DNA of 64,000 nt from Actinomyces ruminicola (GTDB lineage: Bacteria > Actinomycetota > Actinomycetes > Actinomycetales > Actinomycetaceae): NCBI RefSeq assembly GCF_900103885.1, contig NZ_FNIM01000001.1:62001-126000 (forward strand), read 5' to 3'. Of this stretch, positions 3,801 to 48,394 are shown in pieces. Numbering within the stretch: position 1 is the stretch's first letter; every line of letters starts with the position of its first letter. The translations under genes were made by a program, and so were the position numbers. The notes below the pieces were generated by a model that had not been told where the DNA came from, did no database searches, and saw only the letters and a list, made by a program, of their open reading frames with translations.

Positions 3801-4447
3801 ATCTCCAGCCCATGGTCCATGAGCTCGACGTAGAAGTAGTCCTTGCCGAAGATGTCCTGCAGCTCGCCGGCGGCGCGCAGGGCCTCGTCCCACTGGCCCA
3901 GGCGCAGGCGGGTCTGTACCTCGCTGGAGGGGCACCCGGTGGAGGAGATCAGGCCCTTGGAGTAGCGGGAGATGAGCTCTCGGTCCATGCGGGGCGCCTT
4001 GCCCCACTGCCCCTCCAGGGAGGCGAAGGAGTCCAGGCGCATGAGGTTGTGCAGGCCCTCGTCGTTGTGGGACAGCAGGGTCATGTGCGTGTAGGAGCCG
4101 CGGGCGGAGACGTCGTCGGAGCGCTGCGACTCGTCCCCCCAGAACACGCGGGTCTTGTCGAAGCGGGAGGTGCCCGGGGTCAGATAGGCCTCCACCCCGA
4201 TGATGGGCTTGATGCCGGCCTTCTTGGCGGCCGCGTAGAACTCGTAGGCGCCGAACATGTAGCCGTGGTCGGTGATGGCCAGGGCGCGCTGCCCCAGCCG
4301 CTTGGCCTCGGCCACGTAGTCCTTGATCTTGCCGGCGCCATCGAGCATGGAGTAGTCGGTGTGCACGTGCAGGTGGACGAAGTCGTCGTAGGGCTCCTTG
4401 CCGTCGGTCTGCTCGCCTGCCGCCTGCACCGCGTTCGCCTCTGCCAT
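833..4447 (-). CDS. dnaE: DNA polymerase III alpha subunit
   Basis: This is the replicative DNA polymerase catalytic subunit, about 1204 residues, normal for DnaE1. The N-terminus is a PHP domain (FVHLHVHTDYSMLDG near residue 22, AITDHGYMFG near 55). The polymerase active site is visible as PDIDVDF near residue 433. The helix-hairpin-helix region and a C-terminal OB fold (TIAGLITSLTRKTTKQG) follow. I chose the ATG at 4447, giving MAEANAVQ, with AGGATGAGG just upstream. An ATG at 4456 (MRHMAEA) would make a 4-base ATGA overlap with the stop of the upstream GNAT gene and is the alternative. It is last in the minus-strand run that begins with lspA and rluD, and is followed by array A. Confidence 0.97.
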   Translation of the reverse strand: MAEANAVQAAGEQTDGKEPYDDFVHLHVHTDYSMLDGAGKIKDYVAEAKRLGQRALAITDHGYMFGAYEFYAAAKKAGIKPIIGVEAYLTPGTSRFDKTRVFWGDESQRSDDVSARGSYTHMTLLSHNDEGLHNLMRLDSFASLEGQWGKAPRMDRELISRYSKGLISSTGCPSSEVQTRLRLGQWDEALRAAGELQDIFGKDYFYVELMDHGLEIERRVTKDLLRLAKTINAPLLATNDSHYVRPEDRTIQDAMLCINSGSVLSDPDRFKFDGDTYYLRPGREMRALFKEMPEACDNTLLVAEQCNVSFQTVDDGASFMPVFPVPEGETMESWFISECWKGMDRRFHGDIPEECRKQAEYEIGVIVQMGFPGYFLVVADYINWAKRQGIRVGPGRGSGAGSMVAYAMGITELNPLNHGLIFERFLNPERISMPDIDVDFDERRRDEVIEYVKQKYGSDRVSQVVTYGVIKAKQSLKDSSRVMGYPYAVGDRLTKAMPPAIMGKDITIKGMFNPEDPRYGEAQQFRDLHAEDPDAQKIVELASGLEGMTRQWGVHACAVIMSSHTLTDIIPMMQRLQDGAFITQFDYPTCEHLGLLKMDFLGLRNLTVISDALDNIVANGKEPLDIDHIELDDRATYELLARGETLGVFQLDGGGMRTLLRLMKPDNFEDISAVGALYRPGPMGAESHTNYALRKNGLQEIIPIHPELKEALEPILGTTYGLIVYQEQVMKIATDLAGFTMGKADALRKAMGKKKMDILEKMFVEFEAGMVERGFSKESVKALWDVVVPFAKYAFNKAHSAAYGVVSYWTAYLKAHYPTEYMAALLTSQKDNKDKLGVYLGECRHMGIKVLPPDVNASRAQFSAVGDDVRFGLGAIRNVGANVVDAIVKAREQKGDFTSFEDFLDKVPAVVCNKRTIDSLIKAGAFDTLGKSRRALQACHEDFVDEIIGVKRNEAAGQFDLFASIMGDAAGEADAGFGSGPVFSSEVPDLPEWDKKEKLAYERDMLGLYVSDHPLLGLESALAKLADTEISDLIEDDDRPDGAMVTIAGLITSLTRKTTKQGNLWAIAQIEDLGGSIEALFFPSTYQTVSTMLAPDTVVTLRGRLNRRDGQVALYVQEMTVPDVSSATHEAVTITLPTNRCTGPLVEQFKTVLEKHPGMSTVRLTLTSPGREVRTQLDNSLRVEASAAFYSDIKALLGPGCLKR

Positions 4448-4452
4448 GTGCC

Positions 4453-5079
4453 TCATCCTAGGGGCACGCACAGGGTGCGGGCCATGTCCTGGTGCCAGAT
4501 GCCGGCGTCCAGGTAGCGCTCCCCGGTGAGCGCCCGGTAGCCGCAGCGCCGGTAGAAGCCCATGGCCTGTTCCTGCGCCGAGAGCACCACGGTGATAGTG
4601 GCAGGGGGCTCGACGGATGCCGCCGCGGTACTGGTTTGGGACTCGCCGTGGGCCGCCGCCGATCCGACCGCGGCGGCGTGTTCCAGCGCGGCCCGTTCGA
4701 CGGCGGTCACCATCCGCGCCCCAAGCCCGGTGCCGCGGGCCGCTCGCCTGACGGCCAGGCGTCCCAGATGCACCCGGTCGGGATGGTCGGGGTCGAGGAG
4801 TAGCCGAGCGGCGGCGAGCGGGACGCCGTCGGCTCCGGAGGCGAGCACGTGGATGGTGGTCGCCTCGAAGTCACGGGCATCGACCTCCAGCGCGAGGGGG
4901 ACGTCCTGCTCGGCGACGAATACCTCCAGGCGCACGTCTACCAGTCCGCGCCGCAGCGCGTCCAGGGCGGGATCGGCATCGTCGCCCCGGGCGGTCGCGA
5001 AGTGAACCGGCTCGACGACGGCGCGCAACGGCTCGATGCACAGCGGCGGGCGGACGGTCGGGCTGGGCACGTCGGGCAC
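4453..5079 (-). CDS. GNAT family N-acetyltransferase
   Basis: A 208-residue Gcn5-related acetyltransferase. The acetyl-CoA pyrophosphate loop is R115-G-T-G-L-G120, preceded by the HLGRLAVRR strand, and the C-terminal MGFYRRCGYR segment matches motif B. A low-complexity Ala/Ser stretch (about residues 134-158) interrupts the domain. The VFVAEQDV segment resembles the ElaA-like subgroup, but the substrate cannot be told. The start is GTG at 5079 with a strong CCGGAGGTGAATC upstream. It runs straight into dnaE, overlapping or nearly so, so the two are probably co-transcribed. The repeat element at 5141-5180 lies in its upstream region. Confidence 0.85.
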   Translation of the reverse strand: MPDVPSPTVRPPLCIEPLRAVVEPVHFATARGDDADPALDALRRGLVDVRLEVFVAEQDVPLALEVDARDFEATTIHVLASGADGVPLAAARLLLDPDHPDRVHLGRLAVRRAARGTGLGARMVTAVERAALEHAAAVGSAAAHGESQTSTAAASVEPPATITVVLSAQEQAMGFYRRCGYRALTGERYLDAGIWHQDMARTLCVPLG

Positions 5080-6105: not shown

Positions 6106-6707
6106 GCCTCGGTCTCCGCGTGGCGGCCACGGCCGTCACCCGCACGCGTACCGTCGAGCTCCCGGCCGCGCAGGGACAGCACCATGATGACGGCGGCGGC
6201 CCCCACAATCGCGATATCGGCTATGTTCCCCACGAACCAGCCCCCGTAGTCGATGAAGTCGACGACGTGCCCGCGCAGCACACCGGGGGCCCGCGCGAGC
6301 CTGTCGATGAGATTGCCCACCGCACCGCCCAGCACCAGGCCGAGAGCAACCGCCCACCACAGCGAGCCAAGCCGCCGCGACGCCCGGATCACCACCGCGG
6401 TCACGATGCCGGCGATGAGGGCGAATATCCATGTCTGACCGGTGGCGAAGGAGAAGGCGGCGCCGGGGTTGCGCACCAGCACCAGGGTCAGCCAGTCGCC
6501 CAGCAGCCGTACGCGGTGCCCGTCGGACAGGACCGCAACCGCCCAAGCCTTGGTCAGTTGGTCGAGCCCCACCACCGCCAGGGCCAGCATCCACAGCACC
6601 GCGAGGTAGCGCCGGGGACGTCGACCGGACTCGCCCGTCGCAGCGACGGCGTGCTCTCCGGCCAGGTCAGGCCGGATCGGCGTTACGGATTCGGTGGGGT
6701 CGCTCAT
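6102..6707 (-). CDS. lspA: Lipoprotein signal peptidase (signal peptidase II)
   Basis: A 201-residue inner-membrane aspartyl protease that removes signal peptides from diacylated prolipoproteins. About four membrane segments are visible. The two conserved regions are present: NPGAAFSF near residue 80, GNLID with Asp135, and GNIADIAI with Asp164, the catalytic pair. A charged cytoplasmic N-tail of about 33 residues is longer than in E. coli but usual in Actinobacteria. It overlaps rluD by 4 bases. A terminator-like hairpin separates it from divIVA, so it probably has its own promoter between 6708 and 6768. Two lipoproteins in this window (48395 and 58815) are candidate substrates. Confidence 0.95.
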
Positions 6708-6768
6708 GGTCCTTCACGGGTTGGTGCGGATGTACACGGATTCCGGGCACGGGAGGCCAAGACACACG

Positions 6769-6808
6769 GGTCGGGGGCGGCGCCCAGGCAGGTGCGCCGC
6801 CCCCGACC
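6769..6808 (-). terminator. Hairpin terminator after divIVA
   Basis: A perfect 15-bp stem (6769-6783 with 6794-6808) and a 10-base loop begin about 64 bases past the divIVA stop. There is no strong U-tract, as is common in high-GC bacteria. It would end the dcw transcript before lspA. Confidence 0.65.
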
Positions 6809-6871
6809 GGCGGATGTCCGATGGCGTCAGCGGCGGCGCCAAGAATCGCGCCGGGCTGCGCCGGTTGACCG

Positions 6872-7471
6872 TTACAGGCTCGGGGTCGCCGCCTCGTTGC
6901 CGTCCTCGACCGTGCTGAGCAGGTTCTGCAGGTAGCTCTTGAGGCGGGTGCGGTAGTCGGACTCGAAGCGACGCAGCTCGTCGATCTTGTGCTCCAGGCC
7001 GGAGCGCTCCTTCTCGAGCTGAGCCAGGGTGCGGTTGCGCTGGTCCTCGGCCTCGCGGACAACCTGCTCACCGGTTGCGCGGGCCTCGGCGATGATGCGC
7101 TCGCCCTCGGCCTTGCCGTTGGCAACGTGCTCGTCGTGCAGGCGCTGGGCCAGCTCGAGCATGCCGGAGGCGGCCGCAGGCCCCTGGGACTCGTCCGGGA
7201 CCGCAGCGGGGGCCTGCTCAACGACGGGCTCCACCACGGTGGTCTCCTGCGCGGCGACGGGAGCAGCCTGCGCGCCCTCACCCAGCTCCGCCACACGGGC
7301 GTTGGCGGCCTCGAGCTTGGCCTTCAGGTCGGCATTCTCAGCCTCGAGCTGGCGCATGGCCTCGACGACCTCGTCAAGGAACTCGTCGACCTCGTCCTGC
7401 TCGTATCCCTCGCGGAACTTGGTTGCCTGGAACTTCTTATTGAGGACGTCGTCTGCAGTCAGCAGCGTCAT
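6872..7471 (-). CDS. divIVA: DivIVA / Wag31 polar growth scaffold
   Basis: A 199-residue coiled-coil protein that marks poles and septa and recruits cell-wall synthesis. The N-terminal lipid-binding domain is unmistakable: MTLLTADDVLNKKFQ, then GYEQDEVDEFLDEV. It is followed by a coiled coil (about residues 30-65), an Ala/Val/Pro-rich linker, and a long C-terminal coiled coil with EDQRNRTLAQLEKE. The open frame extends 38 codons further upstream, but the ATG at 7471 has CGAGGTGACGACT before it and gives the family's N-terminus. It is the last division gene of the cluster. Confidence 0.96.
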   Translation of the reverse strand: MTLLTADDVLNKKFQATKFREGYEQDEVDEFLDEVVEAMRQLEAENADLKAKLEAANARVAELGEGAQAAPVAAQETTVVEPVVEQAPAAVPDESQGPAAASGMLELAQRLHDEHVANGKAEGERIIAEARATGEQVVREAEDQRNRTLAQLEKERSGLEHKIDELRRFESDYRTRLKSYLQNLLSTVEDGNEAATPSL

Positions 7472-26160: not shown

Positions 26161-26252
26161 TTGGACCGCTCACGCGCGCTTGGACCGCCGTAACCGGCGG
26201 CTACGGCGGTCCAAGCGGACTACATGGGTCCAGTCGGGGAATAGGGGTCCAA
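26161..26252. repeat. Mirrored TTGGACC array, 19-nt pitch (array C)
   Basis: TTGGACC starts at 26161 and 26180. Inverted copies (GGTCCAA or GGTCCAG) end at 26214, 26233 and 26252. All spacings are exactly 19 bases and the two halves share one symmetry centre at 26197. The inner pair forms a perfect 16-bp stem (26177-26192 with 26202-26217). The same array type recurs at 47566-47677. Confidence 0.92.
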
Positions 26253-43031: not shown

Positions 43032-43094
43032 TTACGACCGATCTCGGCACGTTACTTCTACCGAACTCGGCACGTAACTTCTACCGATCTCGGC
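43032..43094. repeat. Three-copy 23-nt tandem repeat (array B')
   Basis: Units start at 43032 (degenerate), 43055 (CTTCTACCGAACTCGGC) and 43078 (CTTCTACCGATCTCGGC), each 23 bases apart with the linker ACGTWA. It has the same unit and pitch as 5141-5180, 38 kb away. A more degenerate copy (CTCCTGCCGATCTCAG) lies at 42981. It sits between the pnp terminator and the M16 start. Confidence 0.92.
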
Positions 43095-43193: not shown

Positions 43194-45563
<2,370 letters not shown>

Positions 45564-46079: not shown

Positions 46080-47231
46080 ATGACCTACCGCATGATCTTC
46101 AACCAGACCGGCTACTTCGGACGCGGCGCCATTGCCAACATCCCCACCGAGATCACCGCCCGCGGCCTGAGCAAGGCCTTCATCGTCACCGACCCGGTCC
46201 TGGCCGACAACGGCACCGCCGCCCGCATCACCGACCTGCTCGACGGCGCCGGCATCTCCTGGGAGATCTTCTCCGATGTGGTCCCCAATCCGCCGGTGGA
46301 GAAGGTGCAGGCCGGCCTGGCCGCCTTCCGGGATTCGGGCGCCGACATCCTCATCGGCCTGGGCGGCGGCAGCCCGCAGGACACCTGTAAGGCCATCTCG
46401 GTGATCGCCACCAACCCCGAGTTCGAGGACGTACTCAGCCTGGAGGGCCTCTCCCCCACGAAGAACCCGGGCACACCCATCATCGGGGTGCCCACCACGG
46501 CGGGCACCGCCTCGGAGACCACCATCAACTACGTCATCACCGACACAGCAAACCAGCGCAAGTTCGTGTGCGTGGACCCCCACGACATCCCGGTGGTCGC
46601 CGTGGTCGACCCCGACCTCATGGACGGCATGCCCCGCGGCCTGAAGGTCGCCACCGGCCTGGACGCCCTCACCCACGCCATCGAGGGGTACATCACCCCC
46701 GGCGCCTGGGAGCTGTCCGACGCCCTGTGCCTGCGCTCCATCCAGATGATCGCGAAGAACCTGCGCCAGGCCGCCGACGGCGACGCCGACGCCGTGGAGC
46801 AGATGGGGCTGGCCGCATACATCAACGGCATGGCCTACTCCAACGTGGGCCTCGGGCTGGTGCACGGCATGGCGCATCCGCTGGGCGGGCGCTACAACGC
46901 CCCGCACGGGGTGGCAAACGGCATCCTGCTGGCCCCGATCATGGCCTTCAACGCCGAGTACACCGGGGAGAAGTACCGCGACATCGCCGAGGCCTTCGGG
47001 GTTGCCGACGCCCAGACCATGCCGCTGGAGGACGCCCGCACCGCCGCCGTCGAGGCGGTCGCCCAGCTGACCCGGGACCTGGGCAACCCCACCCGCATCA
47101 GCGAGGTGGGCGTGGACGAGTCCGGCATCGCCGCGCTGACCGAGGACGCCTTCGCCGACGTGTGCACCCCGGGCAACCCGCGTCCGGCCACCCGCGAGGA
47201 CATTGAGGCGCTGTACCGCTCACTGCTGTGA
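46080..47231 (+). CDS. fucO: Lactaldehyde reductase / propanediol oxidoreductase (iron-dependent)
   Basis: A 383-residue group III alcohol dehydrogenase, the same length as E. coli FucO and recognisably close to it along the whole chain (RMIxNxTxxFGRGA, GGGSPQDTCKAI, KFVCVDPHDIP). It reduces L-lactaldehyde to 1,2-propanediol during fucose or rhamnose fermentation. The NAD loop is GGGSPQD. Metal ligands are Asp about 195 and His about 199 in TGLDALTHAIEGY, and His about 262 and 276 in HGMAHPLGGRYNAPHG. AAGGGAGCGCTCA precedes the ATG. No other fucose gene is nearby. It is the only plus-strand gene between rpsO and pnp, which suggests insertion. Confidence 0.93.
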   Translation: MTYRMIFNQTGYFGRGAIANIPTEITARGLSKAFIVTDPVLADNGTAARITDLLDGAGISWEIFSDVVPNPPVEKVQAGLAAFRDSGADILIGLGGGSPQDTCKAISVIATNPEFEDVLSLEGLSPTKNPGTPIIGVPTTAGTASETTINYVITDTANQRKFVCVDPHDIPVVAVVDPDLMDGMPRGLKVATGLDALTHAIEGYITPGAWELSDALCLRSIQMIAKNLRQAADGDADAVEQMGLAAYINGMAYSNVGLGLVHGMAHPLGGRYNAPHGVANGILLAPIMAFNAEYTGEKYRDIAEAFGVADAQTMPLEDARTAAVEAVAQLTRDLGNPTRISEVGVDESGIAALTEDAFADVCTPGNPRPATREDIEALYRSLL

Positions 47232-47277: not shown

Positions 47278-47565
47278 TAGCGGCAGCGGGTTGTCGGCGT
47301 GAGTCTCGCACTTCGCCCCGACGCTTCGGCGCTTCCTGCGACGGTTCGTGCGTCTACCCCACGGTGTTGTGCTCTTGCTTCTAGGACGATCGGATCTCAT
47401 GAGTTCTGGGAGTGCCGGAAGCAGTGAGACCCTGGTGGCGGCAGATGCGTTGACGGAAGGTCCTGTCGGTCGACCGCTGCTGCGCAGCGGCCGGGCTTCG
47501 TGCGCCTGCCCCGCCGCGCCCCCAGATACTTGTGCCGACTCGCCATCCGCCTCTGCATGCACCAC

Positions 47566-47677
47566 TTGGACCGCCTTGCTCTATTTGGACCGCGGGTGTC
47601 CACTTGGACCGTCTGAGAGCGCAAGCTAGGACGGTCCAAATGGCAGTAGGCGGTCCAAATGGCGGCAGAGAGTCCAA
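47566..47677. repeat. Mirrored TTGGACC array, 3+3 units, 19-nt pitch (array E)
   Basis: TTGGACC starts at 47566, 47585 and 47604. Inverted copies end at 47639, 47658 and 47677 (the last with TTGGACT). Every step is exactly 19 bases and all three pairs share the centre 47621.5. The 11-12 bases between motif copies vary from unit to unit, though CGCC or CGTC often follows. The inner pair forms a 10-bp stem (47604-47613 with 47630-47639). Same family as array C. Confidence 0.94.
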
Positions 47678-47835
47678 AAGGTACGAACCGTCAGCACCGG
47701 GTCCCGTCCGCCGCCTGCCCTGCCGATAACCCGTGAATACGCCAAGCGGACGGGACACCAGGCTCGTCCCCTCGAAAGCAGCCTGCCGCACGCAACAACC
47801 ACCCGTCCGAAAAACCCAGTACCCCAGTCATCACG

Positions 47836-47876
47836 CACCGGGCCCCGACCTCCACGGTGGAGGTCGGGGCCCGGTG
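47836..47876 (-). terminator. Strong terminator after rpsO
   Basis: Perfect 20-base arms (47836-47855 and 47857-47876) around a single central base; in RNA about 18 bp of stem with a small loop. It starts 21 bases past the rpsO stop. On the minus strand a GTTTTTCGG run follows about 20 bases later. Confidence 0.85.
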
Positions 47877-47897: not shown

Positions 47898-48167
47898 TCA
47901 GCGGCGGATGCCGAGGCGGGAGATGAGCTTGCGGTAGCGCTCGATGTCCTCGCGCTCGAGGTAGTCCAGCAGGCGGCGGCGCTTACCGATCAGCAGGTAC
48001 AGGCCGCGGCGTGAGTGGTGGTCGTGCGCGTGGGACTTGAAGTGCTCGGTCAGGTTGGAGATCCGCTCGGACAGGATGGCGACCTGAACCTCCGGGGAGC
48101 CGGTGTCGCCCTCGTGGGTGGCGTACTCGGCAATGAGCTCCTGCTTGCGTTCGGGGGAAATCGACAC
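47898..48167 (-). CDS. rpsO: 30S ribosomal protein S15
   Basis: An 89-residue primary 16S rRNA-binding protein of the small subunit platform. [27 protein letters not shown] opens it, then [18 protein letters not shown] and [10 protein letters not shown], all hallmarks of S15. The GTG at 48167 has AGCAGGAGTCATC upstream. The open frame continues far upstream but only the last 89 codons match. It is cut off from pnp by 2.3 kb containing fucO and array E, and has its own strong terminator. Confidence 0.98.
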
Positions 48168-48394
48168 GATGACTCCTGCTTTCTCGTTGCGCGGAGCGCC
48201 GGGGCTGGTTCTCCCGGGCATGACACGTCCGCGGCCGATCGACGGCTGGGCAACCATATCAGCCAAGAACCGCCCGCCTGGCCCGCAGACCGGTGGCATC
48301 GGGCACACGCCGCCGCCCTGCACAGTCGCCGCGCCGCCTATACTCTTGTCACCTTGGCCCCTGTGAACACCGTCGTTTTCCCTGAGGAGTCCCC

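Follow-up and report, generated by a model that had tools for sequence, protein, structure and literature searches.

Tandem short motifs with a pitch near 20 bp are familiar from iteron arrays and clustered operators, and IS5-family MITEs are short elements whose inverted ends resemble those of an IS5-family element and which carry a CTAG duplication. Among dispersed bacterial repeats, REP, BIME and REPIN sequences have been described as extragenic, palindromic, hairpin-forming, species-restricted and non-autonomous, with more than 100 copies possible in one genome, and BIMEs as regularly spaced palindromes (PMC2817692, PMC3116915, PMC3733652). REP sequences are also described as targets of insertion sequences, with ISPsy8, ISPpu9/10 and ISRm19/22 entering a dispersed palindromic repeat at a specific place (PMC1525189).

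Here we describe a mirrored array of the motif TTGGACC from the window, by which we mean the whole 64,000-nucleotide stretch of Actinomyces ruminicola DNA that was analyzed (genome of 3.10 Mb in 39 contigs). Like REP and BIME sequences, TTGGACC arrays are dispersed intergenic palindromes of high copy number; unlike them, their unit is not itself palindromic, and each array consists of two mirrored direct-repeat arms with a 19-bp pitch and a fixed centre. No constant GTAG or CGTC tag was noticed at the hairpin foot on inspection of the flank listing. The Y1/RAYT transposase (PF01797) had no match in 41 genus genomes, the same search being positive in 5 of 14 control genomes, and this absence rules out RAYT-type REP identity. 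Iterons and clustered operators differ from the arrays, which are many and dispersed, have mirrored arms and share no adjacent gene. We consider the window array, with a probability of roughly 75%, to belong to a family of palindromic, non-autonomous mobile repeats confined to the genus, and the favored reading is that of BIME- or MITE-like non-autonomous repeats serving as an IS target.

The Window Array and Its Distribution in Actinomyces

The array proved to be laid out as the first-pass annotation had described it, with direct copies starting at 47566, 47585 and 47604, inverted copies ending at 47639, 47658 and 47677, and a 19-base pitch throughout (Table 1). Start and end positions sum to 95243 for all three copy pairs, so that the symmetry about a single centre is exact. 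Five of the six copies are exact, and the outermost inverted copy, AGTCCAA, has one mismatch. The flanking minus-strand gene (47898..48257) is, from its sequence and place, presumably rpsO. Rfam gave no match in the window at the gathering score.

Table 1. Coordinates of the array, its parts and its neighbors in the window.
Feature	Position	Strand	Basis
TTGGACC mirrored array, class I, 3 direct + 3 inverted copies, pitch 19	47566..47677	.	sequence
Array centre, TTGGACC + 22 bases + GGTCCAA, 36 bp	47604..47639	.	
Left arm, two 19-base units, spacers GCCTTGCTCTAT and GCGGGTGTCCAC	47566..47603	+	
Right arm, two 19-base units, 1 mismatch in outermost motif	47640..47677	-	
Left flank partly common to other element copies in the same genome	47377..47565	.	
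Second mirrored array family, two left units (GACGCTTCG, GACGGTTCG), 20 apart	47320..47348	+	
Second mirrored array, right unit CGAACCGTC, immediately past the TTGGACC array	47684..47692	-	
Second TTGGACC array in the window, class II, 2 direct + 3 inverted copies (one mismatched)	26161..26252	.	
Flanking gene, lactaldehyde reductase / iron-containing alcohol dehydrogenase	46080..47231	+	
Flanking gene, codon-model call	47898..48257	-	

In the window the exact pattern TTGGACC-N12-TTGGACC occurs as four pairs (both strands) and in none of 200 dinucleotide shuffles. Only the exact pattern stands out there; with up to three mismatches the count is unexceptional, at eight matches where 3.97 are expected, a number reached by 5 of 100 shuffles. 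The genome-wide search that had been proposed for this pattern returned 68 exact pairs, against none for a reversed-pattern control, and this control together with the window shuffles rules out a chance origin of the exact pattern. Across the 59 genomes searched, the exact pattern is present in 10 of 37 from the genus, this one included, missing from the other 27, and found in none of 22 genomes of the order outside Actinomyces. The four richest relatives hold 207, 187, 176 and 151 exact pairs and the five other matching genomes between 1 and 21.

Three direct copies in a row were found in 86 stretches; among the 80 of these that were listed, 73 belong to Actinomyces, with A. ruminis, A. glycerinitolerans, A. 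succiniciruminis, A. massiliensis and A. dentalis as named carriers, and seven come from elsewhere (two from Methylobacterium and one each from Bosea, Sulfitobacter, Methanosarcina, Phycisphaerae and Planctomycetaceae). These seven, which are set aside in the counts of setting and anatomy given below, carry copies in a single orientation, save the Sulfitobacter stretch (L071, 794-863), where three inverted copies in 19-base steps are preceded by one direct copy 25 bases ahead; an unrelated bacterium may here carry a small mirrored array of similar form.

A different repeat also lies in the window, a direct tandem repeat of period 23 (ACCGATCTCGGCACGTAACTTCT) at 43037-43094, just past the 3' end of a large minus-strand gene (43194-45563) that we take to be pnp. 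A similar period-23 array is found in genome G030 (L169, 13000-13079).

Architecture of the Arrays

In the family plan a fixed centre of 35 bp separates a left from a right arm, and the two arms differ in their 12-base spacers. At the Actinomyces array loci examined, exact motifs spaced by no more than 30 bases on the same strand are 19 apart in 243 pairs, 20 in 12, 24 in 1 and 18 in none, and the offset from the start of TTGGACC to the start of GGTCCAA across the centre is 28 in 101 cases and 29 in one. This single exception is the window array, so that the centre measures 35 bp in 101 of 102 exact-motif centres and 36 bp in the window. There are three main centre sequences; of 116 arrays with a 35-bp centre, 57 are class II, 28 class I and 28 class III, with 3 belonging to none. 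Arms carry up to seven motif copies in the main survey (and none where an array is interrupted or cut), with longer arms elsewhere, and the number of units differs between orthologous arrays. A very large array in genome G005 (L280, 3940-4354) has 3 direct and 15 inverted exact copies, mostly in 19-base steps. In G022, a distant Actinomyces, some centres at loci L183-L188 are shortened to TTGGACC-ACGGT-GGTCCAA, and the flanks of these loci carry a common CGCCGCCATGA-like stretch.

The spacers on the two sides of the centre differ at fixed positions, which gives the element a polarity. Identity between the innermost left and right spacers falls to 0.00 at position 3 in class I (n=25), to 0.02-0.04 at positions 4, 5 and 7 in class II (n=53) and to 0.00 at position 10 in class III (n=24). 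The match between innermost left and right spacers is no closer when both come from one array than when they come from different arrays of the class, the observed value being reached by 871, 566 and 549 of 1000 shuffles for classes I, II and III. This lack of left-right covariation rules out RNA pairing as a constraint on the spacers.

The arrays thus combine tandem arms in mirror orientation, a constant pitch, spacers specific to each side and a single centre of fixed form. Neither this architecture nor the family is described in the titles and abstract openings of the papers listed on the 7-mer, on Actinomyces repeats, on the three rumen species or on REP, IS481, BIME and MITE sequences, and in the A. 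glycerinitolerans genome note the one passage matching any of five repeat-related terms concerns CRISPR.

Genomic Setting and Neighboring Genes

Array sites overlap no called gene in 126 of 127 cases, and 17 of the 127 have no called neighbor on one side. The 109 scorable arrays, a sample that leans to large arrays because the named ones were ascertained by three direct copies, lie in 36 convergent, 53 co-directional and 20 divergent gaps. Background gaps of at least 150 bp (n=91) divide into 13 convergent, 50 co-directional and 28 divergent, and all background gaps (n=225) into 40, 147 and 38. The convergent setting pointed out in the first-pass annotation therefore holds at the window locus, while for the family as a whole, with 36 of 109 arrays convergent, it does not generalize.

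That convergent gaps are represented at 36/109 as against 13/91 and 40/225 would suit a transcription terminator or an mRNA-protecting hairpin at gene ends, as would the strong RNA folds of six array stretches (z of -3.71 to -8.24; window array -7.85 on the plus and -7.26 on the minus strand), but several features make this explanation quite improbable. Divergent gaps hold 20 of the 109 arrays, the innermost spacers show no better pairing within arrays than between those of the same class, and the window array has no T run; the hairpin with a T run, confined to gene ends, that typifies an intrinsic terminator is not what we find. Moreover, a separate hairpin starting at 47840 adjoins the rpsO end, and a comparable one is visible by eye in six array-free relatives, in whose inspected gap sequences the two window flanking genes lie 85-100 bp apart. 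The earlier view that the array is not an ordinary terminator is thus borne out by the missing T run and this separate hairpin.

No gene family is shared beside most arrays among 236 neighbor proteins. The largest cluster, ABC-ATPase-like on visual inspection, has only 11 members with orthologues counted, and the next two have 7 (a single orthologous family) and 5 (LacI-like on inspection), which rules out a partner gene beside the arrays. In G030, A. glycerinitolerans and A. ruminis (L043, L102, L196) two arrays flank an ORF whose G000 form has no Pfam or NCBIfam match at E 0.001; at the corresponding place in A. succiniciruminis (L055) there is one array and the intervening stretch is absent, as array-array recombination would leave it. 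At G030 L167, an identical 743-bp duplication (3905-4647 and 6356-7098) carries one array per copy. The array on contig C35 has a repeated left flank that begins some 40 bases after the end of a tRNA-Thr gene (L134, 1742-1816), and this array is itself interrupted by an IS481-family element.

Conservation of the Motif and Helical Phasing

Nine orthologous array pairs passed our test, six of the same class and three of different classes. In the same-class pairs, differences amount to 3 of 238 motif bases, 39 of 264 spacer bases and 8 of 126 centre bases, and all three motif differences come from the pair whose orthology is least sure (L131/L064, 69% identity around). The different-class pairs, all of them one locus in three species, have no differences in 42, 49 and 42 motif bases, and 21 of 48, 28 of 60 and 25 of 48 in the spacers; few loci are represented overall. 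Unit detection allowed at most one mismatch per motif and so biases the motif difference figure downward, to an extent that in our judgement is too small to account for how low it is. Since TTGGACC is nearly unchanged while the spacers vary, the motif appears to be read as sequence, probably by a protein, and the sequence-specific recognition suggested earlier is what a conserved 7-mer would point to.

The accompanying proposal that all copies face one side of the helix fails on arithmetic. At 10.5 bp per turn, 19 bp amounts to 1.81 turns, and successive copies rotate by about 70 degrees, so that they share no face.

Retention of TTGGACC and of the 19-bp pitch while spacers change could also be expected of a host chromosome-organizing or regulatory site, at which a nucleoid protein would bind the array as a multimer, and several orthologous gene gaps do hold arrays of different classes in different species. 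In most of these gaps the shared flanks end before the array, so that the gap is shared and identity of the site is not sure. We regard such a host site as unlikely: the absence of an exact match from 27 of 37 genus genomes argues against a core function, the sites do not lie on one face, the nesting and IS insertion described below suggest tolerance and not constraint, and no candidate protein was identified. Given those 27 genomes, a host function is possible and is not needed to explain the data.

Mobility, Empty Sites and Nesting

In A. glycerinitolerans, one class II copy (L053) is carried by a 200-bp element that has GTC..GTTGTGTAAGT as its inverted ends and CTAG on each side; genome G012 has the empty site, GAGCA-CTAG-AAACC, with a single CTAG. 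Target-site duplication and empty site were found together at this one locus, and inverted ends related to those of an IS5-family element were found for class II only. The 200-bp element resembles IS5-family MITEs in its short length, IS5-like inverted ends, CTAG duplication and empty site, and differs from them in carrying the TTGGACC array as an internal passenger; such ends are lacking in many other arrays. With up to two mismatches, ends of this type with CTAG number 34 in G014, of which 24 pair in inverted orientation 208-550 bp apart, and 35 in G030, where related ends with CTAG bound a 1,004-bp IS5-family element (NF033580, 236 bits).

The window locus itself differs among relatives. 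G012, G014 and G030 have at this place a mirrored GACGGTTCG array, of pitch 20-21, and no TTGGACC element, and G005 has its own TTGGACC array with a single palindrome and other DNA. As units of the GACGGTTCG array flank the TTGGACC element on both sides, the window element sits within a second array, and insertion of the class I array into that array is supported by the sequence comparison, with element edges placed to about 15 bp and neither a TIR nor a duplication delimited. Its left flank, from about 47377 partly common to other copies, matches that of the contig C35 copy at 82% (query 1298-1544) and that of the contig C29 copy at 79% (query 1358-1598). A mechanical test flagged such nesting in 5 of 142 arrays, two or more left units being present in three of them (window, L118, L127), and a 427-bp stretch around L127, both arrays included, is absent in G012. 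The GACGGTTCG family occurs in all five TTGGACC-rich genomes searched, with 11 to 56 exact pairs, and in none of G010, G027 and G022.

Two of the searches that were followed yielded junctions (L053, L127), while the bare array L124 gave none that was clean. For bare arrays, a form that many class I copies take, the searches produced no clean empty site showing a duplicated target. Class III arrays have a left module, GGGTTATCGGCG, on one side only, and their right terminus was not found.

An IS481-Family Element Enters the Arrays

Of ten contig ends near arrays that were read in this genome, nine break in an IS481-type end within the array and one, on contig C6, in other sequence. Pieces of the transposase score 69.5 and 65.7 bits against the IS481 family model, a shortfall from the full-length cut-off of 224 that is expected of pieces. 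The end pattern has 21 matches in this genome, comprising 14 ends and 7 second internal repeats of counted ends. All 14 ends lie in arrays, 13 in the centre and 1 in an adjacent spacer; as two ends in a draft assembly can belong to a single insertion, they represent 7 to 14 sites. The preference is weaker in other genomes, where 4 of 9 sites are in TTGGACC arrays (2 of 2 in G030, a short remnant included, 2 of 5 in G005 and 0 of 2 in G014); one of the G014 sites is the centre of a GACGGTTCG array, and G012 has no match to the end pattern.

Within the centre the element inserts at a specific place. Complete copies are bordered by 15-bp direct repeats, which read CCACCTGAAACGCAC where the centre is class I and CCGCCGCAACCGGTG where it is class II (there around a shortened 437-bp copy); both repeats start at the CC of the motif and cover bases 6-20 of the centre, and several class III junctions in this genome stop at the equivalent position or at its mirror position. 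For a copy lying outside arrays the direct repeat is GCCGGGGACAGCGCA. Entry at a specific place recalls the insertion sequences that target REP sequences, whereas the 15-bp duplications, the half-centre entry and the differing centre sequences from array to array set this case apart. Near its ends the element bears 2-4 tandem repeats, each about 25 bases long, and derivatives shortened to 437 and about 530 bp are also present. Since it has end repeats of its own and inserts inside the array, identity of the array with an IS end is ruled out.

These end repeats, together with arms that differ by side, give rise to the most interesting rival explanation, namely that an array represents collapsed transposon ends, the left-end and right-end site arrays of one extinct transposon family joined via a 21-bp remnant, with the TTGGACC unit as transposase-binding site. 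Spacers fixed by side are what a transposon's left and right ends can show, and the IS481-family element offers both tandem end repeats and shortened derivatives as a precedent, yet we hold this origin to be possible but doubtful. All 32 motif clusters in 27 G030 stretches have both arms close together (31 with exact copies in both arms and one with one-mismatch inverted copies), so that none brackets a gene between its arms; the array is internal and not terminal in the MITE at L053; constant terminal bases were not noticed at array edges; and no autonomous parent with TTGGACC arrays at its own ends was found in the genomes examined.

Implications

Under the favored reading of non-autonomous mobile repeats, the arms would gain and lose 19-base units by duplication and loss, and TTGGACC would be kept because it is read by a transposase or a DNA-binding protein that the element needs. 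The IS481-family transposase may recognize the palindrome of the centre, either in DNA form or once extruded as a hairpin. The first-pass annotation had anticipated the recurrence of the array, its distinction from an ordinary terminator and recognition of the motif; it had missed the link to mobile elements, and its one-face and general convergence proposals did not stand.

More speculatively, and improbably in our estimation, the arrays could be nucleoprotein platforms and a distinct class of mobile DNA, in which a dedicated protein would read TTGGACC and the centre would act as a landing pad that diverts IS elements and other arrays from genes, either protecting the host or feeding mobile elements.

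The entry of the IS481-family element into arrays means that the draft assembly breaks at several array places. It also provides a natural, repeated example of an element that picks the same position of a palindrome despite differing class sequences, and whether IS481-family elements choose their target by symmetry or by the 7-mer thereby becomes directly testable.
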